Virus record (IMG/VR): IMGVR_UViG_3300045256_000818
Coordinates: 1 to 33,901 of that record
DNA: 33,901 bases
Reading direction: 5' to 3' (one strand)
From: a virus
Shown here: piece after piece, positions 980-33,160 of the stretch
Position numbering within the stretch: the stretch's first letter is position 1
Layout of the letters: each line of letters begins with the position of its first letter
Position numbers and translations under genes: made by a program
Notes under the pieces: model-generated
Database searches by the model: none
What the model was told of the DNA's origin: nothing
The model's input: the letters and a program-made list of their open reading frames with translations, nothing else

Positions 980-1378
980 ATGGGCTTCAAGGTGATGGTT
1001 CCGAATCGCGCGCAGGATGACGGCGCCCGCGTGCTGATCGGCATCAGGACGTACGGGGGGGGGCACAAGCTGGTGCTTAGCATCTCCGAAGACACGGCGC
1101 GGGCGCTCCGTTGGAAGGACGGCGACAAGATCGAGGTCGCCGCCGGCACCGAGGAAGATGCCGGCAAGATCCAGCTGCGGCCCGGCGCGCAAGGTTACAA
1201 GCTTCGCACGATCTCGAAAAAGACGTCGCGCCTCGGCCTCAAATGCGTGCCGTGGGCCGACTGTCCCGATGAATACGCGAATGTGCAGCCGGAAATCTCG
1301 GTCAACCAGGCGGCGCGCACGCTGATCATCTTCGCGCCCTGGCACGACTGGCCGGCGGCCGACGAGAAGGCCGCGTGA
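980..1378 (+). CDS. Conserved phage protein with AbrB-like segment
   Basis: 132 residues from ATG 980; the alternative GTG 947 would add 11 residues encoded by the leader box. Residues 31-53 (LVLSISEDTARALRWKDGDK, then IEV) resemble the swapped-hairpin segment of AbrB/SpoVT-type proteins, where a strand, a helix and a G-D-x-I/V-x-V turn follow each other. A second half (residues 60-132) has no recognised motif. A run of nine G at 1055-1063 encodes Gly26-28, so any slip in that tract would destroy the frame. Function unknown; a DNA-binding or structural AbrB-like role is only suggested. It overlaps the following methyltransferase-like gene by GTGA. Confidence 0.65.
   Translation: MGFKVMVPNRAQDDGARVLIGIRTYGGGHKLVLSISEDTARALRWKDGDKIEVAAGTEEDAGKIQLRPGAQGYKLRTISKKTSRLGLKCVPWADCPDEYANVQPEISVNQAARTLIIFAPWHDWPAADEKAA
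1055..1063 (+). repeat. Poly-G tract (9 G) in coding sequence
   Basis: Nine consecutive G in frame (Tyr-Gly-Gly-Gly-His), followed by CACA. It is one of two long G runs in the early operon; the other, with ten G at 3354-3363 and the same CACA flank, breaks its gene. Confidence 0.8.
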
Positions 1379-2013
1379 CCGGCCTCGGCGCCATGATGAA
1401 CGGGGGCAAGTCGTCGGCGGGTGCCGACGACTTCAACCTCGAGCCGACCGGCGCCGCGCCGCGCGAGCGCGAGCCGGACGATTTCTATCGGACGCCGGAA
1501 GAGTGCACCGAGGCGCTGCTGCAGGCCGAATGCGGCAAGATGCGGCTGCACGGTCTGCTCGCGCATGAATTCTGCGCCGGCGACGGCAAGATCTCGGGCG
1601 TGCTGCGCCGCTACGGCTTCGCCGTGATCGAGAGCGACCTGGTCGATCGCGGGATCGGCGCCGATCAGGTCGACTTCCTGCAGCTGCAGCAGCGTCGCGC
1701 GCCGATCGGCTTCACCAATCCGCCGTTCGCGATCGCCGACGAGATCCTGGCGCATGCCCGCGACGTGATCGGCTTCGACTATCTCGCGCTGTTCCTGCCG
1801 AGCTCGTTCTGGCACGCGGGCAAGCGCTTCGCGCGCTTCGATCGAGATCCGCCGGCGGCGGTCTATGAGCTCACCTGGAAGCCCGATTTCCTCGAGCTCG
1901 GCAATCCGGCGATGAACATGAAGTGGGTGGTGTGGCGGCCGCATGAGGGCGACACGGTGTTCCGCCTGCTGCGCAAGCCAGGCGGTGACTTGTTTGACCA
2001 GGTGGCGAAATGA
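1375..2013 (+). CDS. Adenine-specific DNA methyltransferase-like protein
   Basis: 212 residues. Motif order fits a phage Dam-type N6-adenine methyltransferase: DFYRTPEECTEALL near residues 35-48, an AdoMet-binding stretch EFCAGDGKISGVL at 65-77 followed by VIESDL, and FTNPPF at 113-118 as the catalytic (D/N/S)PP(Y/F) motif. The last aromatic is Phe rather than Tyr, seen in some families. The likely role is methylation of phage or host DNA, either for protection from restriction or for regulation. The target sequence cannot be read. GTG 1375 overlaps the upstream stop; ATG 1393 or 1396 are alternatives, and no strong ribosome site decides. Neighbours are early replication and anti-defence genes. 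Confidence 0.75.
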   Translation: MTGLGAMMNGGKSSAGADDFNLEPTGAAPREREPDDFYRTPEECTEALLQAECGKMRLHGLLAHEFCAGDGKISGVLRRYGFAVIESDLVDRGIGADQVDFLQLQQRRAPIGFTNPPFAIADEILAHARDVIGFDYLALFLPSSFWHAGKRFARFDRDPPAAVYELTWKPDFLELGNPAMNMKWVVWRPHEGDTVFRLLRKPGGDLFDQVAK

Positions 2014-4104: not shown

Positions 4105-4457
4105 AGGATGTATTCGGCCAACCGCTCGCCGGCTACAAGGTCGAGAAGCCGACCATTTGGCAACGGCTCGGCTTTGGCAACTGTGACGCGCCGTATTTCG
4201 ACGACGATCAATTCGGCGAGGGTTGGGCGCCGGGCCAGATCAGCACCAGCGTTTACGCCGTGCTCGACTGGCGCGATCGCCTGCGCGTGCTGATCAGCGG
4301 GCGGATCAAGACCGCGACCGCGATCAAGACCGACCATGTCGTGGTTCAAAGCTACTCCGCGTGCAATTTCAGCGTGCTGCCGCCGCGCACCGCGTTGCCG
4401 TGGAATCCGGGATCAGGGACGGGAAGCGAGAGAGATGAAAACCTATCGAAGCCATAA
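4101..4457 (+). CDS. Conserved phage protein of unknown function
   Basis: 118 residues from ATG 4101 (ATGA-coupled). The recognisable part is DWRDRLRVLISGRIKTATAI, then KTDHVVVQSYSACNFSVLPP, a beta-rich stretch that recurs in phage early regions. The last 20 residues overlap the leader of the next gene, whose GATCAGGGAC box lies inside this coding sequence. No catalytic motif seen. Confidence 0.6.
   Translation: MKDVFGQPLAGYKVEKPTIWQRLGFGNCDAPYFDDDQFGEGWAPGQISTSVYAVLDWRDRLRVLISGRIKTATAIKTDHVVVQSYSACNFSVLPPRTALPWNPGSGTGSERDENLSKP
4411..4434 (+). promoter_or_regulatory. GATCAGGGAC leader box, copy 2
   Basis: GATCAGGGAC (4411-4420), then GGGAAGCGAGAGAG and ATG 4435, again a 14-nt gap. It lies inside the 3' end of the upstream gene, so its conservation is not explained by that protein's frame. 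Confidence 0.6.
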
Positions 4458-4965
4458 GATCGTGCAAGCCGCGAAGATCATCAGCGCGACGCGCGGCGGT
4501 GACGGCAAGTGGACGCTCGGCCTCGAGGGCGGCTACATCGTGACGCTCGACCAGGCCGTGACGGCACGCTATGAGCCGCAGGCCGGCGACTACCTGGTGA
4601 AGTACCCGCCCGACGACTATCTGTCGATCTCGCCCGGCAAGACCTTCGAAGATGGATACACCGAGATCGTCAGCCGCGATGAGGGCATGACATTCGGCCA
4701 AGCTCTCGAGCAGGTAAAGCGCGGCGCCAAGGTCGCGCGCGCCGGCTGGAACGGCAAGGGAATGTACATCGCCTTGCAGCCGGGCAGCGTGATCAGATCC
4801 GATCAGGCCCGCGGCGGCGTCGCGCTCGAGCTCTCCAAGGAAGGGAAGCCGGAGATCGTAATCCTTCCGCACATCGACATGAAGTCGGCGCAGGGCGATG
4901 TGGTGGTCGGGTGGCTTGCCTCACAGACCGACATGCTCGCGACCGATTGGGCGATCGTGCTCTGA
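4435..4965 (+). CDS. Tad2-like (DUF2829) anti-Thoeris protein with extra N-terminal domain
   Basis: 176 residues. Residues 85-176 are a DUF2829 domain: MTFGQALEQVKRG, ARAGWNGKGMYI at 101-112, PHIDMK at 145-150 and GWLASQTDMLATDW at 159-172. DUF2829 includes Tad2, which sequesters the cyclic-ADPR-type signal made by the Thoeris ToxN-independent TIR sensor ThsB and so stops activation of the NADase effector ThsA. All hallmark stretches are present. Residues 1-84 (YRSHKIVQAAKI..., then SPGKTFEDGYTEI) form a second small domain that also occurs alone or fused in phages, role unknown. The domain assignment is confident; anti-Thoeris activity is inferred from the family, since not all DUF2829 proteins have been tested. 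It sits between small accessory genes and the primase. Confidence 0.75.
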   Translation: MKTYRSHKIVQAAKIISATRGGDGKWTLGLEGGYIVTLDQAVTARYEPQAGDYLVKYPPDDYLSISPGKTFEDGYTEIVSRDEGMTFGQALEQVKRGAKVARAGWNGKGMYIALQPGSVIRSDQARGGVALELSKEGKPEIVILPHIDMKSAQGDVVVGWLASQTDMLATDWAIVL

Positions 4966-6149
4966 TGACCGCAGCCCGGCAGCAGCGCACGCAACGGCCG
5001 TTCCTGCACTCGGTGCAGGAGATCGGCGACGGCTTGCGCGCGCGGCTGCCGGAGCTCATCACCAACCAATGGGGCCTGCGCGGGTATTGGGATGGCAACG
5101 AGTTTGTCGCCTTCAACCCGCTGCGCAACGATCGGCACCTGGGGTCGTTCCGCCTGGTCGCCAAGGGCGGCGGCGCGCTGCAGGGCCTGATCCGCGATTT
5201 TGCGATGGATAAGAATTGGTCGCCGCTGGAATTCGAGAGCGAGTTCCGCCGCGGCGGACCGAGCCGGGAAGCGATGGGCCGCGCCATCAAATGGGCCGCG
5301 GCCTGGCTTGGCTACAGCGACGACGATCCCGGCCGAATCGCGATCACGCGCAAGGCGATCGAGCAGCGCGATCAGCGCAGCATCGAAGACGAGGAAGAGC
5401 AGGCGCGCAAGCGCGCGGCGGCGAAGAAGCTTTATCTCTCCGGCACGTCGATCTACGGCACGCATGCCGAGACGTATCTGCTCGGCCGCGGGATCCCGAT
5501 CCGCAAGCTCGACGTCGAGCTCGAGGGGCTGCGCTATCACCCGGCGCTGCATTACACCAAGGGCTGCAGCTGCGGCGGTGATCCGAACTACCAGGGCAAG
5601 CACCTGACATTCCCCGGCATGATGGCGGCGATCATCGGGCCGACCGGGAATTTCCTCTCGTGCCATCGCACCTTCCTGCAGCCGATCGATGACGGCCGCG
5701 TGGTGAAGGCCGACGTCTCGGAGGCGAAGCTGTCGCTCGGCCGCTACAAGGGGCATGGCCTGATCCGTCTGTGGGCGGGAACCTGCGTCGATCCGAAGAC
5801 CGGCGAGATCCGCAAGCAGAAGCGGTTGAGCGAATGCAAGCCGCGGTCGCTGTGGATCGAGATGACGGAAGGCATCGAGAACGGCCTGACGATCGCCTAT
5901 GCCTGCCAGGAGCTCCGCGTGGTCGCCGGCGTCTCCGGCGGCAACATGACCAGCGTGCGCTATCCCGAGCAGGTCGCCGGCGTCACCTTCTGGCGCGACA
6001 ATGACGCCGCCGGCAGCGCTGCCGATCGCGCGCTCGAGGCCTCGATCGCCAACGCGCAGCGCCAAGGCCTCGAGGTCGAGGTCGCCACGGTGCCGGCGAC
6101 GTTCAAGGACACCAATGACGCGCTGCAGGGGAAGGTGCGCCATGGATAG
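4965..6149 (+). CDS. Toprim-domain DNA primase-like protein
   Basis: 394 residues from ATG 4965 (TGATG overlap). The central part (residues about 145-240) has AAAKKLYLSGTSIYGTHAET, then YLLGRGI and LRYHPAL, followed by the PGMMAAI strand seen in phage Toprim primases. The Toprim core follows: catalytic Glu in MTEGIENGL (E302) and the acidic pair FWRDNDAAG (D345, D347), then the D-x-ND-x-L end. A GCSCGG stretch near residue 200 may bind metal. It would make RNA primers for phage replication. The helicase gene follows after two tiny genes, which makes this a replication module. Confidence 0.8.
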   Translation: MTAARQQRTQRPFLHSVQEIGDGLRARLPELITNQWGLRGYWDGNEFVAFNPLRNDRHLGSFRLVAKGGGALQGLIRDFAMDKNWSPLEFESEFRRGGPSREAMGRAIKWAAAWLGYSDDDPGRIAITRKAIEQRDQRSIEDEEEQARKRAAAKKLYLSGTSIYGTHAETYLLGRGIPIRKLDVELEGLRYHPALHYTKGCSCGGDPNYQGKHLTFPGMMAAIIGPTGNFLSCHRTFLQPIDDGRVVKADVSEAKLSLGRYKGHGLIRLWAGTCVDPKTGEIRKQKRLSECKPRSLWIEMTEGIENGLTIAYACQELRVVAGVSGGNMTSVRYPEQVAGVTFWRDNDAAGSAADRALEASIANAQRQGLEVEVATVPATFKDTNDALQGKVRHG

Positions 6150-6318: not shown

Positions 6319-6464
6319 GTGAGGTCGAGCTCGAGCTCAGGCGATGGGAGGACGAAGGCGGCGCGCTCTTCGTCGAAGTGTTTCCGGTGCAGGTGCTCTG
6401 CACCCTGACCATGGGCGCTGTCCGCATCTCGGATGGCGTGATTGAAGTTGAGGTTGTCGATTGA
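6315..6464 (+). CDS. Very small hypothetical protein
   Basis: 49 residues from ATG 6315 to TGA 6464, ATGA-coupled to the gene before and overlapped by the TTG start of the helicase gene. It starts MSEVELELRRWEDEGGALFV and is predicted to be beta-rich and acidic. The overlap pattern on both sides is the reason to call it; no homologue is recognised. Confidence 0.5.
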   Translation: MSEVELELRRWEDEGGALFVEVFPVQVLCTLTMGAVRISDGVIEVEVVD

Positions 6465-8518
6465 GCGAAGATCAGGGACCAGGGGAAGAAGGCCTCGAGA
6501 CGATCCGCGCGGCGAAGAAAGGCGCGAAGCGTCGGCCGAAGCCTGATCTGAAAGTCGTCGCCGGCGAGCAATCGACCGATAGCGGCGGTGCCGGCGACGA
6601 TGCCAAGCCGAAGAGCGCCGGCGTCCTGCCGCAGGGTTGCCCGGTCACGGCGCTCGGCATGCACAAGGACACGTACTATTTCATCGATCAGCGCGGGCAG
6701 CTGCGCATCGTCGAAGACAAGGCGCTCGGCCGCGCCAAGATCAAGAGCATGTTCGGGTCGCTGAATTACCTGCTGGCGGAAGATGGCTTCTGGCCGCGCA
6801 AGAAGCAGGACAAAGACACCGGCGAGTGGATCACCACAGGTTGGAAGCCGGAGGATGCCGAAAGCGCGCTGATGAAGGCCTGCGCCGATAACGGTTTCTG
6901 GTCGCCGGTCGATCGGGTGCGCGGCCGCGGCGCCTGGCTCGGCGAGAATGGCGAGCTCATCATCAACTGCGGCGATACGGTGCTCGAGATCCCGGGCGGC
7001 ATCGCCGGCGAGAAGGTGCGCGGCCAGGCGAAGCCTTGGAAGGAATTCACGCCGGGCCTGCATGCCGGCATGGTCTATGAACGCGGCGATCGCTGGCTTC
7101 GCCCCGACCCGGTGTCGCCGCCGGCGAGCAACGGTCCGGCCGATCAGATCTTGACGATCCTGCGGACATGGAACTGGTACCGCAAGGAAGCCGATCCGAA
7201 GCTGATGCTCGGATGGCTATGCGCTGCGATGCTCGGTGGCGCGCTGCATTGGCGCGTGGTCGGCTGGATCACCGGCGGCCACGGTACCGGCAAGAGCTCG
7301 CTCGAGCGGCTGCTGAAATCGCTGTTCGGTGGCCATGGCATGCTCAACACCGGCGATGCGACCGAAGCCGGCGTGCGCCAGACTGTCGGGAACGATTCGC
7401 TGCCGGTCGCGCTCGACGAGCAGGAGCCGGATCCGGAAGGGGACAATCGCCGGCTGCGCGCGCTGATCGGCCTGGCGAAGAACGCGGCCAGCGGCACGGT
7501 CGGCACGCGCGGATCCGCGGACGGCAAGTCGCCGTCGCAATCGATCATCCGCTCGGCCTTCATGCTCGGCTCGATCCTCATTCCGGACATGACGCCGGCG
7601 GAACGCTCGCGCCTGGTGCTCTTCGAGCTCCACCCGCTCGAGAGCAAATCGCCGCCGGAGTTGACGCCGGCCGGCGCGCGCGAGCTCGGCAACAAGCTGA
7701 TGCGGCGCCTGGTCGATAACTGGCATTGCTTCCCCGCGACCGTCGCGACGTTTCGCGATGCGCTGCGCGAGGCTGGCCACGCTGCCCGCGGTCAGGACGT
7801 CTTCGGCACGCTGCTCGCCTGCGCGCATGTGGCGCTGTCCGACGATCCGCCGACCGATGACGAGTTGCAGCACTGGCAGGAAGTGCTCGCGCGCGACGTC
7901 GTCGCCGAGCTCGAGGACGAGATCTCGGACGAAGCGGCGCTGCTCAACCTGCTGCTGTCGATCACCATCGAGCAGCCGCACGATCGCAAGCGCTTTCCGA
8001 TCGGCCATTGGGTCGGCCGCGCCGCGGGCCGTTGGGATGGCTTGAAGCCGGCCGACATCAACGCGTCGAACGCGGTGCTGATCCAGTGCGGTCTCAAGGT
8101 GGTGAGCATGGACGGCGAGCAGTATCTCGCCGTCGCCAATCGTCATCACGGCCTGGCCAAGCTGCTCGAGGGCTCGCGCTGGCGCGCATCGCCAGGCGGC
8201 AAAGGCGGATGGGTGCAGGCGCTGCGTCGTTTGCCCGGCATCAGGAAGCCGAAGATCACGATGTACTTCGGATCGAATTCGAAGGCGACGCTGCTGCCCC
8301 TCGATCTTTGCCTGCCGTCGCGGCCCGCGGCCGCGACACAAAACGGGTCGGCCGCAGCGGGCTCGCCTGGCACGCCGATCGCCGGCTCGAGCTCGTCATC
8401 GGAGGCGAGCACGCGGAGCGCGGCCGACACCGATCAGAATCAGCCGCCGCGCATCGATGAGGGATCGCACGATCTCGACGGGGTCGACGGCGATCCCGAT
8501 CTCCCCTCGAGCCTCTAG
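6461..8518 (+). CDS. SF3-type replicative helicase/ATPase (D5/DUF5906-like)
   Basis: 685 residues. The Walker A motif GGHGTGKS lies at 272-279 and Walker B VALDEQ ends at D319-E320, followed by an RxLRALIGLAKNAASG region and TPAERSRLVLFEL, as in phage and plasmid superfamily III helicases next to primases. Residues 60-240 (PVTALGMHKDTYYFID...) are the usual N-terminal region of this group; the last 70 residues are low-complexity (Ser/Ala/Pro). It probably unwinds DNA at the phage origin together with the Toprim primase. Start: TTG 6461 overlaps the upstream stop and is followed by a GATCAGGGAC box; no ATG occurs before codon 67, so the true start is uncertain. Confidence 0.8.
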   Translation: MSEDQGPGEEGLETIRAAKKGAKRRPKPDLKVVAGEQSTDSGGAGDDAKPKSAGVLPQGCPVTALGMHKDTYYFIDQRGQLRIVEDKALGRAKIKSMFGSLNYLLAEDGFWPRKKQDKDTGEWITTGWKPEDAESALMKACADNGFWSPVDRVRGRGAWLGENGELIINCGDTVLEIPGGIAGEKVRGQAKPWKEFTPGLHAGMVYERGDRWLRPDPVSPPASNGPADQILTILRTWNWYRKEADPKLMLGWLCAAMLGGALHWRVVGWITGGHGTGKSSLERLLKSLFGGHGMLNTGDATEAGVRQTVGNDSLPVALDEQEPDPEGDNRRLRALIGLAKNAASGTVGTRGSADGKSPSQSIIRSAFMLGSILIPDMTPAERSRLVLFELHPLESKSPPELTPAGARELGNKLMRRLVDNWHCFPATVATFRDALREAGHAARGQDVFGTLLACAHVALSDDPPTDDELQHWQEVLARDVVAELEDEISDEAALLNLLLSITIEQPHDRKRFPIGHWVGRAAGRWDGLKPADINASNAVLIQCGLKVVSMDGEQYLAVANRHHGLAKLLEGSRWRASPGGKGGWVQALRRLPGIRKPKITMYFGSNSKATLLPLDLCLPSRPAAATQNGSAAAGSPGTPIAGSSSSSEASTRSAADTDQNQPPRIDEGSHDLDGVDGDPDLPSSL
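6470..6493 (+). promoter_or_regulatory. GATCAGGGAC leader box, copy 3 (no ATG at the usual place)
   Basis: GATCAGGGAC (6470-6479), then CAGGGGAAGAAGGC. At the 14-nt position, where other copies have ATG, this one has CTC, in frame with the helicase. The stop-codon context TGAGCGAAG before it matches the copy at 951. Confidence 0.55.
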
Positions 8519-8725
8519 GCACCATCGCCATGTTCCTTTCCCCAACCCATCCCCGACCCAAAGGCGTGAAGCGGTCACGACGCTACGCAGGCGTGCACGC
8601 TTGTGCAGGCGCGACCGCGACCTGTGTCTGCCGCCTTTGGGGCGGGGAGGTTAGACGGAAGTTAGACGGAAGTTCGTTAATCTCGGCGGTGATTGTCTCG
8701 CGCGATCAGTGGCTTAGGCCGCGCG

Positions 8726-8749
8726 TCTAACTTTCTAACTTTCTAACCG
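8726..8749 (+). repeat. Iteron arm A: three TCTAACTT units
   Basis: TCTAAC at 8726, 8734 and 8742, an exact 8-bp period. The arm is the inverted complement of the GTTAGAAA arm at 8799-8822 (23 of 24 positions), separated by about 49 bp that include a GC-rich TGCACG...CGTGCA dyad. Confidence 0.8.
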
Positions 8750-8798
8750 GCCCTATACGTGATGCACGTGCGCGCGCGTGCACAGGCGAGGAAACCCA

Positions 8799-8822
8799 CG
8801 GTTAGAAAGTTAGAACGTTAGA
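8799..8822 (-). repeat. Iteron arm B: three GTTAGAAA units
   Basis: GTTAGA at 8801, 8809 and 8817 with 8-bp period. It pairs with arm A with one mismatch, so the region can form a large stem or present two opposed blocks of binding sites. Confidence 0.8.
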
Positions 8823-8913
8823 AACGGTAATAAAGATTAAGAGTATCAGTCACTTAGCTTCTAACTTTCTTCGAACCAGCGTCTAACCATTAAACAAAGG
8901 GCCATCTAATCGC

Positions 8914-9429
8914 ATGTCCGAGCCCAAGGGCACCAAAGCGGCGGTCGATCAGCTGATGCAGGATGCGCAGCTGCCGGCGACGGGCGAGCAGCTGGGGTTG
9001 CTGGATCCCGTGGCGCCGGCGGGCGAGGTGCCGCGGGTGGTGCTCGACGGCGCCAGGCGCGGGCGGCCGGCAGGATCTCGGAATCGGCGCACGCAGGAGA
9101 TCGTCGATTACCTCACGGCGAAGTATCCGCTGCCGCTCGAGGGCCTGCTGCGCCTGGCCGCCATGTCGATCGACGAGATCAGGGCCGAGCTCGGCTGCTC
9201 GGCGCTCGAGGCCGGGCAGGAACGCCGGCACGCGCTGGTCGCGGTGCTGCCCTACATCCATCAGCGGCAGCCGATCGCGGTCGACGTGACCAACCACAAG
9301 ATGGTGCACCTGACCATCGTCGAGGGCGGCGACGAGCTCGGCGCCAGCGGTGATGACGACGTCGTCACGGTGCAGGCGCAAATCGTGTCGGTTCAAGACG
9401 TTAGCGACAAGGAAGGCAGCGATGTTTGA
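8914..9429 (+). CDS. Probable terminase small subunit
   Basis: 171 residues. The stretch RRGRPAGSRNRRTQEIVDYL (about residues 48-67) is the GRPxGSxNxxT motif that marks many phage small terminase or DNA-packaging proteins. It is followed by helices (LTAKYPLPLEGLLRLAAMSI; ALEAGQERRHALVAVLPYIH) and a C-terminal beta/acidic tail. It lies just upstream of the large terminase and opens the late region, which fits a protein that recognises the packaging site. The identification rests on motif and position; similar GRPxGS proteins without packaging roles exist. Confidence 0.6.
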   Translation: MSEPKGTKAAVDQLMQDAQLPATGEQLGLLDPVAPAGEVPRVVLDGARRGRPAGSRNRRTQEIVDYLTAKYPLPLEGLLRLAAMSIDEIRAELGCSALEAGQERRHALVAVLPYIHQRQPIAVDVTNHKMVHLTIVEGGDELGASGDDDVVTVQAQIVSVQDVSDKEGSDV

Positions 9430-9471: not shown

Positions 9472-9723
9472 ATGAACCTGCTGATTAAAGAACAGCACGC
9501 CGGAACCCTCGAGCTCGCCGATCGCTGCCAGGCGCGCGCCTGGTCGCCGCGCGCCGGAGCTCGCGCTTGCCGCCACGATTTCCCGCGGCGAGGGGGTACC
9601 CCGGTTTTCGCGCCGCCGCGTCGCCATCGGGCCCTTCATGTGACCGATATGCGCTCGGCCGGAGTTTTTCGGATTCCGGCCCGCGAACAAAAATCTGGAT
9701 CGAAGCAGGGGGGCGGGCGGTGA
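9472..9723 (+). CDS. Possible small protein between terminase genes
   Basis: 83 residues; it starts in an ATGA context and ends in a GTGA overlap with the large terminase start, which favours a translated gene. The first 40 residues use codons like the neighbours; the second half is rich in Arg/Pro/Gly (RRGGTPVFAPPRRHRALHV) and its DNA contains a GGGGTACCCC palindrome (9593-9602) and T- and A-rich patches. That could mean the segment is really a non-coding packaging site. No family recognised. Confidence 0.35.
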   Translation: MNLLIKEQHAGTLELADRCQARAWSPRAGARACRHDFPRRGGTPVFAPPRRHRALHVTDMRSAGVFRIPAREQKSGSKQGGGR

Positions 9724-11213
9724 GCGAGACTCTGAGCCTGGTCTACAAGCCGGGCGGCCCGGTGCTGCGCGACTTCATGCGGAGCCAGAAACCCGTTCAG
9801 CCGCTCATGGGTCCGGTCGGGGGCGGGAAGACGCGCGCGGTGCTGACCAAGGGCGTGAAGTGCGCGCAACGCCAGCGGCCGTCGACGCGCGACGGCCTGC
9901 GGAAGTTCAAGCTCTGCGTCGTGCGCGACACCTATCGGGATCTCTGGCGCTCGACGATCCCCAGCTGGTGGAAGGTGATCCCGAAGAATGTCGGCGAGTG
10001 GGTCGGCGCCGAAGGCGACCCCGTGACACACACGATCGACTTCGCGCTCGCCGACGGCACGCGCGCGCGGTACATCCTGCAATTCGTGGCGATCGGCGAC
10101 CAGGCCGTCGAAGACGTGCTGCGCGGTTACGAGGTCAGCGCGTTCTATCTCAACGAGGCCGATCGATTGAGCCGCGACGTCTTCACCTATGCGCGATCGC
10201 GCACCGGCCGCTTCCCCGACATGGACGAAGGCGGCCCGACCTGGCATGGCATCTTCGCCGACTACAACGCGCCCGACACCGAGAATTGGACCTTCACCGA
10301 TTTCGACGACAAGCGCGCCGACGACGTCGATTTCTTTCGCCAGCCGTCGGGCCTGTCGCCGCAGGCCGAGAACCTGATGAACCTGCCGCCCGACTACTAC
10401 AAGAACATGATCAAGGGCCAGCCGGATTGGTGGGTGCGGCGCTTCGTGCGGAACGAATACGGCTATAGCCGCGACGGCCTGCCGGTCTATGGCGAGTGGG
10501 TCGATTCGATGCACGTCGCCGAGATCGAACCGATCCCTGGCCTCAAGCTCCTGATCGGCGCCGACGCGGGCCTGACGCCGGCGGCGGCGATCGGACAGCG
10601 CCTTCCTTCCGGCCGGTGGCTGATCCTCGCCGAAGTGATCGGCGAGAAAGGCATGGGCGCACGTCGCTTCGGCCGAATGCTCGGGCAATACGTGCGGGAG
10701 CACTTCTCCGGATTCATGAGCATAGAGGGATATGCGGACCCGTCGGCGGCCTACGGCGCCGATCGGCAGAACGACGAGCAAGACTGGATCGAGATGGTCC
10801 AGGACGAAAGCGGCCTCTGGTTCATGCCCGCGCCGAGCAACAATCTCACGCCACGCCTCACCGCGGTGCGCGAGCCGTTGACGCAGCTGATCGACGGCAA
10901 GCCGGCCTTTCTGCTCCATCCGCGGTGCACGCAGCTGCGCAAGGGCTTCAACAGCGGATACCGATATCGACGGATGCAGATCCCGGGCATGGAGCGTTAC
11001 GACGACAAGCCGGAGAAGAACGAATATTCGCATCCGCACGACGCGCTGCAGTACCTGATGCTCGGCGGCGGCAGCGACTATGAGATCGGCGATCGGCGCG
11101 ATCGCCTGAGCTCGAGCACCAGGCAGACCACGGCGATCTCGACGGATCATCCGCGCGGCGAATGGGGGAACGGCAATGGCGGTCGCCAGCGCTTTGCGAT
11201 TAACGAGGAATGA
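9720..11213 (+). CDS. terL: Terminase large subunit
   Basis: 497 residues from GTG 9720, which overlaps the preceding stop and follows a G-rich ribosome site. The N-terminal ATPase has Walker A GPVGGGKT at 31-38 and a Walker B-like AFYLNEAD near 141-148. The C-terminal RNase H-like nuclease shows its three acidic positions in LIGADAGLT (D282), YADPSA (about D340) and HPHDALQYL (D441). It is the motor that cuts concatemeric DNA and packages it into the prohead. An open extension upstream to 9567 adds 51 Arg/Pro/Ser-rich residues with no terminase character and is rejected. The length matches podovirus large terminases. Confidence 0.92.
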   Translation: MSETLSLVYKPGGPVLRDFMRSQKPVQPLMGPVGGGKTRAVLTKGVKCAQRQRPSTRDGLRKFKLCVVRDTYRDLWRSTIPSWWKVIPKNVGEWVGAEGDPVTHTIDFALADGTRARYILQFVAIGDQAVEDVLRGYEVSAFYLNEADRLSRDVFTYARSRTGRFPDMDEGGPTWHGIFADYNAPDTENWTFTDFDDKRADDVDFFRQPSGLSPQAENLMNLPPDYYKNMIKGQPDWWVRRFVRNEYGYSRDGLPVYGEWVDSMHVAEIEPIPGLKLLIGADAGLTPAAAIGQRLPSGRWLILAEVIGEKGMGARRFGRMLGQYVREHFSGFMSIEGYADPSAAYGADRQNDEQDWIEMVQDESGLWFMPAPSNNLTPRLTAVREPLTQLIDGKPAFLLHPRCTQLRKGFNSGYRYRRMQIPGMERYDDKPEKNEYSHPHDALQYLMLGGGSDYEIGDRRDRLSSSTRQTTAISTDHPRGEWGNGNGGRQRFAINEE

Positions 11214-20279: not shown

Positions 20280-20728
20280 TGCGGATCGTTAACCTTGATC
20301 GCGAGCTCTTGCAGATGGCGGTCCATCTGGCGGCCGATCGGGCGTTTATCGAGCGGTGCCGATCGGCTGACTTTGAGCGCCTGGTGCTCGGGCATCCCGG
20401 CTATGCGGTTATCCGGGGCGGCGAGCTCGTCGGCGCGGGCGGCGTCGTGATGCACTGGCCAGGCCTGGCGGAAGGGTGGCTGCTGCCGTCGATCTTCGCG
20501 ACGAGGCGCGACCTGGTGAGGGCAACGCGCGGCATGCGGCAGTGGTTCGACCGCCTGCAGCAGGAACCGGTCTATCGCCGTCTCGAGATCCGGATCAGTG
20601 CGGCGGCCGCCTGGCGTAGCTGCTGGGCGAAGGCCATCGGGTTCGACGCCGGCCAGCTGCTCGAGGCCTGGGGGCCGGACGGATCCGACCACTTCCTTCA
20701 TGCCCGCATCGCGAAGGGGGCAAGCTGA
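20279..20728 (+). CDS. GNAT-like virion protein
   Basis: 149 residues from ATG 20279. The fold pattern fits a GNAT acetyltransferase: AVIRGGELVGAGGVVMHWPG strand pair, a helix around DLVRATRGMRQWFDRL, RLEIRISAAAAW and a C-terminal AKAIGFDAG. In BPP-1-like and T7-like phages a protein of this type sits between the nozzle and the ejection proteins. A canonical Q/RxxGxG/A acetyl-CoA loop is not clear, so catalysis is doubtful; a structural role is possible. Confidence 0.65.
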   Translation: MRIVNLDRELLQMAVHLAADRAFIERCRSADFERLVLGHPGYAVIRGGELVGAGGVVMHWPGLAEGWLLPSIFATRRDLVRATRGMRQWFDRLQQEPVYRRLEIRISAAAAWRSCWAKAIGFDAGQLLEAWGPDGSDHFLHARIAKGAS

Positions 20729-31361: not shown

Positions 31362-31642
31362 TCCGCATCCCGCGCTTCGCGCTGCTCGTCGCCGGCATCG
31401 TGATCGCCGGCGCCGGCGCGCTGGCTTTCAACCTGGGCCACCCGGTCGCCGGCGCGATCGTCGGCGGCGTCGGCCTGGCGATCGCCGCGGCCGAGTTCAT
31501 CACCATCGAGCGCAAGCGCGAGAGCGACGACGCGCAGCTGCAGGAATCGGCCGCGCGGCTGCAGCCCGGCGCGGACGACAATCCGGAGATCGATGACAAG
31601 TGGATGCACGATCAATTCGGGGGGCGTGGCGGTGGAGCGTGA
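31358..31642 (+). CDS. Two-TM small membrane protein (holin-like)
   Basis: 94 residues, ATGA-coupled to the tailspike. Two hydrophobic segments at about 7-26 and 30-50 (FALLVAGIVIAGAGALAFNL; AGAIVGGVGLAIAAAEFITI) with a polar acidic C-terminus. The topology fits a class II holin, and it opens the lysis cassette. Family not recognised; a second, better holin follows at 32489. Confidence 0.5.
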   Translation: MIRIPRFALLVAGIVIAGAGALAFNLGHPVAGAIVGGVGLAIAAAEFITIERKRESDDAQLQESAARLQPGADDNPEIDDKWMHDQFGGRGGGA

Positions 31643-31883
31643 TCAGGAGGCGCGCGATCTCGCGCGATCGGCGATGGCAAGGATCGACAAGCATGAGGCG
31701 GTTTGCGTCGAGCGGTACGGCACCATCGTCAAGAACCAGGAGGATGGCGCGCTCGAGCGCAAGACGATGCACGAGGCGAACCAGACCAGCATCCGGCGGA
31801 TCTATGGCCTGCTGTGGAAGTGCGCGCTCGGCATCATCGCCTTCCAGGCCGTGATTCTGGCCGGCATCCTGTTCCACAACTGA
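31632..31883 (+). CDS. XhlA-like membrane-anchored lysis accessory protein
   Basis: 83 residues from GTG 31632, overlapping the previous gene; the longer start at 31593 is disfavoured. A polar helical N-terminal region with KHEAVCVERYGTIVKNQED is followed by one C-terminal hydrophobic segment (about 60-80, LLWKCALGIIAFQAVILAGI). This layout is that of hemolysin XhlA/Bhl-type proteins found beside holins and endolysins. A spanin-like role is less likely, because there is no lipobox. Confidence 0.55.
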   Translation: MERDQEARDLARSAMARIDKHEAVCVERYGTIVKNQEDGALERKTMHEANQTSIRRIYGLLWKCALGIIAFQAVILAGILFHN

Positions 31884-31891
31884 GGTCCACC

Positions 31892-32488
31892 ATGACGATC
31901 GACGGTCTGCTCGAGGATCTGCTGCGGCGCGAAGGCGGGTATGTGAACAATCCGGCCGATCGCGGCGGCCCGACCAATCTCGGGATCACGCAGAAGACGC
32001 TCTCGGCCTATTACGGTCGGCCGGCCTCGATCGAGGACGTGAAGCGCGTGACGCCGGAGCTCGCGCGCGAGATCTATTCGAGGATCTATCTCGACGGGCC
32101 GGGCATCCACACCATGCCCGCCGAGATCGTGCCGGCGCTCTTCGACGCCGCGGTCAATTCCGGGCCGCGGCAGTCGATCATCTTTCTGCAGCAGGTGCTC
32201 AACTTCGCCGGCTATGGACCGCTGCAGGCCGATGGCGCGATCGGGCCGAAGACGCGCGCGGCCGCGGTGAGGGCGCAGAGCGAGATGGGCGCAATGCTGC
32301 TGGCGGCCCTGGTCGATCAGCGGCGCGCGTTCCTCGAGGGGCTGATGCAGAGCGATCCGAGGCAGCAGCAGTTTCGCCGCGGCTGGATCCGGCGGCTGCT
32401 CGAATTCATGTATGAGGCCCTGCGCCAGGCGCCCGACGACGCCTTCATCAAGGCGCGCATCGCCGCCTATGAACAGGAGGCGGCTTAG
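31892..32488 (+). CDS. Endolysin, glycoside hydrolase family 108 type
   Basis: 198 residues from ATG 31892. The N-terminal signature LLRREGGYVNNPADRGGPTN, then LGIT contains the catalytic Glu (E14) of GH108 muramidases. The middle (PALFDAAVNSGPRQSIIFLQ, then QVLNFAG and ADGAIGPKTRAAA) is the peptidoglycan-binding domain 3 that follows in this family. No signal peptide, so export depends on the holin. It cleaves the glycan backbone of peptidoglycan at lysis. Confidence 0.88.
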   Translation: MTIDGLLEDLLRREGGYVNNPADRGGPTNLGITQKTLSAYYGRPASIEDVKRVTPELAREIYSRIYLDGPGIHTMPAEIVPALFDAAVNSGPRQSIIFLQQVLNFAGYGPLQADGAIGPKTRAAAVRAQSEMGAMLLAALVDQRRAFLEGLMQSDPRQQQFRRGWIRRLLEFMYEALRQAPDDAFIKARIAAYEQEAA

Positions 32489-33160
32489 ATGGGCATTCTC
32501 AGCAGCCTCAACCCGGCGACGGCGATCGCCAATGCGCTCGGCGGCACGATCCTCGATGGTGTGAACACCGGCATCAAATCGATCTGGGGATCGAAGCAAG
32601 AGCGCGATCAGCAATCCTACGAGCTCAACGCCGCCAATCAGAGCGAATATTCGGCGGAATTTCAGTTCCGCGAGAATCGCAGCTGGTGGGACAGCTTCAT
32701 CGACGGGCTCAACCGGCTGCCGCGGCCGGTCATGGCGCTCGGCGTGATCGCGCTCTTCGTCTGGTGCCCGATCGACACGGTCGGTTTCTCGCAGGCAATG
32801 GTGGCGCTCGGCCTCATCCCGCAACCGATGTGGCTGGTGCTCGGCACCATCATCGCGTTCTTTTTCGGCGATCGCACGATCAAGGGCATCCAGGACATGA
32901 AGGCGCCGTCGGCGACGCAGGTGCGCCAGGTGATCGATGCGCAGAAGGCGATCCGCGATGCCGCCCTGCAGGCGCCCGGCGCCGACGGCGCGGCGGCGCG
33001 CGTGGATCCGGAAGCCTTGAAGGGTGTGAGCGTGCAATCCTCGAGGCCGGCGGAATCCGACCAGGCCTATCGCGCCGACATGGCGGACGCGTCGTCGCCG
33101 CTCTCGAATGCGACGATCCTCGAATGGAACCGCCGGCAGAAGCAGGGCGCGCGGCCATGA
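32489..33160 (+). CDS. Three-helix holin of gene-transfer-agent type
   Basis: 223 residues behind AGGAGG. An amphipathic N-terminus, then NRLPRPVMALGVIALFVWCP, a middle hydrophobic stretch (about 98-112) and PMWLVLGTIIAFFFGDR (about 113-128) form the three-TM holin of the GTA-holin family, with a long soluble C-terminal tail (IQDMKAPSATQVRQVIDAQK...). It would permeabilise the inner membrane for the endolysin. Confidence 0.75.
   Translation: MGILSSLNPATAIANALGGTILDGVNTGIKSIWGSKQERDQQSYELNAANQSEYSAEFQFRENRSWWDSFIDGLNRLPRPVMALGVIALFVWCPIDTVGFSQAMVALGLIPQPMWLVLGTIIAFFFGDRTIKGIQDMKAPSATQVRQVIDAQKAIRDAALQAPGADGAAARVDPEALKGVSVQSSRPAESDQAYRADMADASSPLSNATILEWNRRQKQGARP

Follow-up and report, generated by a model that had tools for sequence, protein, structure and literature searches.

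The stretch of DNA that was analysed (the window, 33,901 nucleotides) is a 33.9-kb IMG/VR podovirus record with a portal resembling that of Pelagibacter phage HTVC010P. Its genes are ordered primase, helicase, repeat array, TerS-like protein, large terminase (TerL), portal, capsid and tail. The Toprim primase (4911-6149, + strand; PF13362/PF23639, phrog_510) is encoded by its own gene, whereas primase and helicase are fused in distant relatives. The helicase gene follows (6461-8518, + strand; phrog_35358) and is separated by a gap at 8519-8913 from the terS-like gene (8914-9429, + strand), which lies 26 bp past the array. The TerS-like protein belongs to the phrog_15261 family with a weak resemblance to phrog_641; on comparison with the known TerS families it gave no match, and 5 of 16 homologues matched phrog_641 (best E value 0.007). 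The large terminase (9567-11213, + strand) carries the Walker A motif GPVGGGKT and is 54% identical to that of relative L004; its true start is probably near 9732. Among the early genes ahead of the primase, 4336-4965 (+ strand) encodes a Tad2-like domain (PF11195, Thoeris anti-defence 2-like, E value 5e-26). A gene at 1375-2013 (+ strand) gave a partial phage DNA methyltransferase match, covering profile positions 203-368 of 458 in phrog_799, and is possibly split or shortened. A lysis pair of glycosyl hydrolase 108 endolysin and GTA-type holin with three transmembrane segments (PF11351) is located at 31703-33160 (+ strand).

The gap between the helicase and terS-like genes contains ten exact copies of GTTAGA/TCTAAC, as the initial annotation had listed, at positions 8650, 8661, 8726, 8734, 8742, 8801, 8809, 8817, 8860 and 8882. 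Between 0.07 and 0.16 copies were expected in 8519-8913, and a single further copy was located elsewhere in the window, at 376. The cluster score of the array was 18.8, compared with at most 8.4 for any 6-mer cluster in Markov-1 resamples of the window. A chance or low-complexity origin of the repeats was ruled out by the expected copy number and these resamples. The helicase open reading frame ends at 8518, in agreement with the annotated distance of 131 bp to the first copy. The description of the gap as the only large non-coding one was loose, since the list of open reading frames leaves further gaps of ∼320-340 bp near 20280-20597 and 31362-31702.

Two degenerate sites, GTTCGT (8672) and GTTCGA (8871), stand in exact 11-bp register with the outer copies, and the array is therefore composed of 3+3+3+3 = 12 sites in four triplets, oriented >>> <<< / >>> <<<. 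The outer left arm (8650-8677, + strand) contains GTTAGA, GTTAGA and the degenerate GTTCGT, and the outer right arm (8860-8887, − strand) GTTAGA, the degenerate GTTCGA and GTTAGA, both with a period of 11 bp. The inner left arm (8726-8747, − strand) and inner right arm (8801-8822, + strand) each contain three exact sites with a period of 8 bp. Taken as 8726-8749 and 8799-8822, the inner arms are 24 nt each and 96% complementary in inverted orientation, which bears out the earlier count of 23 of 24 positions. In the central core (8762-8784), purines and pyrimidines alternate strictly over 23 nt; no other such run in the window exceeds 13 nt. To the right of the core, an AT-rich stretch at 8823-8859 is a candidate melting site; the AT-richest 30-bp segment of the gap (8820-8849) has an AT content of 0.70, and the adjoining AT-rich stretch described previously was thereby confirmed.

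No direct DNA relatives of the gap were detected among phage records, and scans with the single TerS or helicase proteins gave no matches, so that alignments were needed to find relatives. Three relatives found through TerL (L004, L005 and L006) have the same array anatomy with the units TGTAACGC, TGTCACGG and GTTAGAAA/CCTAAC. From a search with a helicase profile, 80 loci in viral records and 79 in genomes were obtained; most of the genome loci are prophages of Alphaproteobacteria, and a Tistrella mobilis and a Sphingomonas prophage are examples of cultured relatives. An array was present at 73 of the 80 viral loci and, among the genome loci, at 33 of the 36 closer ones (prophages) and 15 of the 43 more distant ones, for which the calls rest on exact 6-mers. 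Codon-periodic GC 6-mers that mimic arrays (CAGCAG, CGGCGA) were excluded, and GC skew was left aside as evidence because it tracks the coding strand. As a control, the array scan was applied to P4, where its two best matches were the annotated crr and ori, both composed of TGTTCACC iterons.

In total ∼120 helicase relatives share the array layout with differing 6-bp units, and the carriers are phages, prophages and one small plasmid without packaging genes. Across ∼125 non-redundant loci the sites are spaced by 8 or 9 bp in the inner arms and by 11 or 12 bp in the outer ones, and AT content is highest +50 to +69 to the right of the core; near-universally, inner-left sites point leftward and inner-right sites rightward (<< / >> about the core). 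Of 203 loci, 167 have their longest purine-pyrimidine-alternating run within the array. Strong (CG/TG/CA)n alternating cores occupy the array centres of L113, L126, L135 and many others, and in AT-rich hosts the cores alternate but are TA-rich. Such cores could form a putative Z-DNA or easy-melting element. No paper describing this origin family was found among the papers searched.

The helicase carries Walker A and B motifs, and across the alignments of its relatives (A1 and A4) the invariants are GK, DExE and one Arg. An AlphaFold2 model (pLDDT 91.9) was searched against the PDB with Foldseek. The top matches were NrS-1, ASFV PrimPol, SaPI5, PriRep1 and MPXV E5, all of them SF3/D5 helicases, with E values of about 1e-7 and TM scores of only 0.3-0.37. 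The model, with its AAA+ core, places the protein among the SF3/D5-type replicative helicases, and it is proposed to be the origin-binding initiator. Its predicted C-terminal domain, residues ∼490-640, gave no significant Foldseek fold match; the order of elements (H-E-E-H-H-E-E) suggested a winged helix, which is not claimed given that result. Assignment to the P4-type primase family (TIGR01613) was rejected, as the window helicase did not match and its best relative scored 16.7 bits against a cut-off of 108.7. Alignment with P4 alpha was limited to the Walker A region, and the C-terminal hhalign probability was 0.1.

Divergence of the repeat unit was compared with divergence of the neighbouring proteins. 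Mantel r was 0.325 for the helicase, 0.26 for TerL and 0.21 for TerS, and the partial r with the unit was 0.27 for the helicase given TerS and 0.08 for TerS given the helicase. For close pairs (helicase distance <0.5) the partial figures were 0.50 (helicase) and −0.22 (TerS). Co-variation was best near the C-terminus of the helicase, at residues ∼596-620 (8246-8320, + strand), where the residual correlation with unit divergence reached 0.467, a value that comes from related sequences and does not prove contact. Neither 500 randomly drawn column sets (maximum 0.36) nor permuted labels (maximum 0.264) reached this value. Over successive distance bins in this segment the unit was shared by 100, 79, 33 and 8% of pairs. 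A weaker peak was observed at residues 82-116. The last 25 usable helicase columns alone gave only 0.25; the signal is therefore local, with boundaries that are only approximate. L277, L291 and L296 have both unit and helicase tail in common, and L293 differs in both; the unit is GTAACA in L277 and GTTTCA in L293.

In the podovirus clade the array usually lies 20-90 bp upstream of terS, and it remains just upstream of terS in L147, L261, L277, L286, L291, L293 and L296, in which the helicase gene is 1-8.5 kb away. L147, L277, L291, L293 and L296 are rearranged to array-TerS-early genes-primase-helicase-TerL, with terS apart from terL and heading the early operon. Among helicase relatives with unrelated packaging genes, the array adjoins the helicase gene in Bdellovibrio phi1422, S-H1 and Acjo_20, 1.8-7.5 kb from the annotated terminase genes, and in Paraburkholderia, Acidithiobacillus and Azospirillum loci. 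Exceptions are MQ-4, where the array is away from the helicase, and PY223, where 12 kb separate the two and the array is nearer the terminase. The Arsenophonus linear plasmid L340 (8190 bp) encodes the helicase (E value 1e-114) and a telomere resolvase (ResT/TelK), lacks a terminase and contains twelve TGTAAT/ATTACA copies, the first 63 bp past the helicase gene. It is a minimal replicon of this class.

Because the array is found with the helicase across unrelated terminases and on a terminase-free plasmid, and because its unit follows the helicase, the origin reading is favoured: as judged from comparison of sequences, 8650-8887 is very probably an origin of replication that the adjacent helicase recognises and on which it is likely to load as a double hexamer. 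The initial annotation had proposed an iteron-like origin beside an SF3 helicase, and this is supported by the co-occurrence with the helicase, the terminase-free plasmid, the co-variation with the helicase C-terminus and the P4 scan control. Counted against it are the podovirus arrays that stay by terS, the PY223 array, the 15 of 43 distant loci and the C-terminal domain with no fold match.

As the main rival reading, the position beside terS could instead mark a packaging start (cos or pac), in which TerS would bind the repeats and terminase would cut the GC-rich core. Its strongest argument is that the array keeps to terS even where the helicase is remote (L147, L261, L277, L286 and L293), in addition to the 20-90 bp spacing in most podovirus-clade members. 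Adjacency to terS in that clade is what would be looked for in a cos or pac site, but neither co-occurrence nor co-variation with TerS was found: the unit shows no dependence on TerS once the helicase is controlled for, and it is mismatched to the TerS mid-region, which differs between L277 and L291 although their unit is common and is alike in L293 and L291 although their units differ. Arrays also exist without a TerS homologue, on the terminase-free plasmid and kilobases from the terminase in phi1422 and Acjo_20, whereas four helicase-less records (22-58 kb) with TerS homologues contain no array. Moreover, the near-symmetric array offers no obvious packaging direction. Given the co-variation result, the plasmid and the records with TerS but no helicase, the packaging explanation has lost weight and is considered improbable.

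Still less credence is given to the array as an operator for a transcription factor governing the late-gene switch. In the window it does sit between early (replication) and late (packaging and head) genes, but in phi1422 and Acjo_20 it is 3' or upstream of the helicase with the late genes elsewhere, the unit tracks the helicase tail, and it would be unusual for an operator to span 200+ bp and to combine an alternating core with twelve sites set at fixed 8/11-bp intervals. An origin that in the podovirus clade also holds, immediately ahead of terS, a packaging start or a late promoter would overlap with the origin reading and account for both the tie to the helicase and the fixed place upstream of terS. 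No separate conserved packaging element was identified, however, and such a double role is rated as rather unlikely, if better placed than either explanation above.

For the replication origin, the following mechanism is proposed. The helicase, which is of the SF3/D5 type, would recognise the twelve 6-bp sites through its C-terminal part, and the two halves of the array, six sites each and mirrored about a distortable alternating core, would recruit the helicase as two opposed hexamers. The helicase would thus load itself on the origin, the right-hand AT-rich flank would melt, the separate Toprim primase would prime, and replication would run outwards from the array in both directions. A broader proposal is put forward tentatively, as something that may well not hold: that this is a class of origin widespread in phages and plasmids, in which the 12 sites correspond one-to-one to the 12 subunits of a head-to-head double hexamer, the core is a supercoiling-sensitive opening switch, and site letters and helicase tail have been repeatedly re-matched, so that co-resident phages spare each other's origins. 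The dozens of pairs of repeat unit and helicase constitute a natural data set on DNA reading by SF3 initiators and on change of origin specificity, and the array, with its regular geometry of 12 sites, lends itself to direct tests of double-hexamer loading.

Among known origins, those of iteron plasmids (RSF1010 and RepA types) likewise combine short repeats with an adjacent AT-rich stretch, close to the gene for an initiator. Their direct repeats are long and their initiator or loader is a separate protein, whereas here short sites in inverted triplets lie next to an SF3 helicase. The SV40 origin has four pentamers plus flanking elements, compared with twelve sites here, and its host and protein are unrelated. 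In that origin inverted short sites guide two head-to-head SF3 hexamers of T-antigen (PMC9894130).

The likeness to P4 noted in the initial annotation holds for the layout and not for the protein. P4 crr, with short TGTTCACC iterons in mixed orientation, is immediately 3' of alpha, as the array is 3' of the helicase gene, and these iterons resemble the GTTNNA units common in arrays (the unit of L288 is GTTCAC). P4 differs in that its iterons are split between two elements and a long alternating core is absent, and the window helicase is outside the P4 primase family by sequence, with its C-terminal domain unaligned. SaPI/PICI origins follow immediately 3' of the initiator gene rep and consist of an AT-rich region between two sets of iterons (PMC6092414), and their opposed repeats are thought to recruit two head-to-head self-loading hexamers (PMC9894130). 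The window array shares this layout, being 3' of the helicase gene with two opposed iteron sets and an AT-rich stretch, although its AT maximum is right of the core and not exactly central. The SaPI5 primase-helicase is a match of the window helicase in fold only (10-12% identity). Here, by contrast, the sites are 6 bp long and form four triplets with 8- and 11-bp periods about an alternating core, and the carriers are phages, prophages and plasmids. By its layout the array would work like the SaPI/PICI and P4 origins, while by sequence it is a member of neither.
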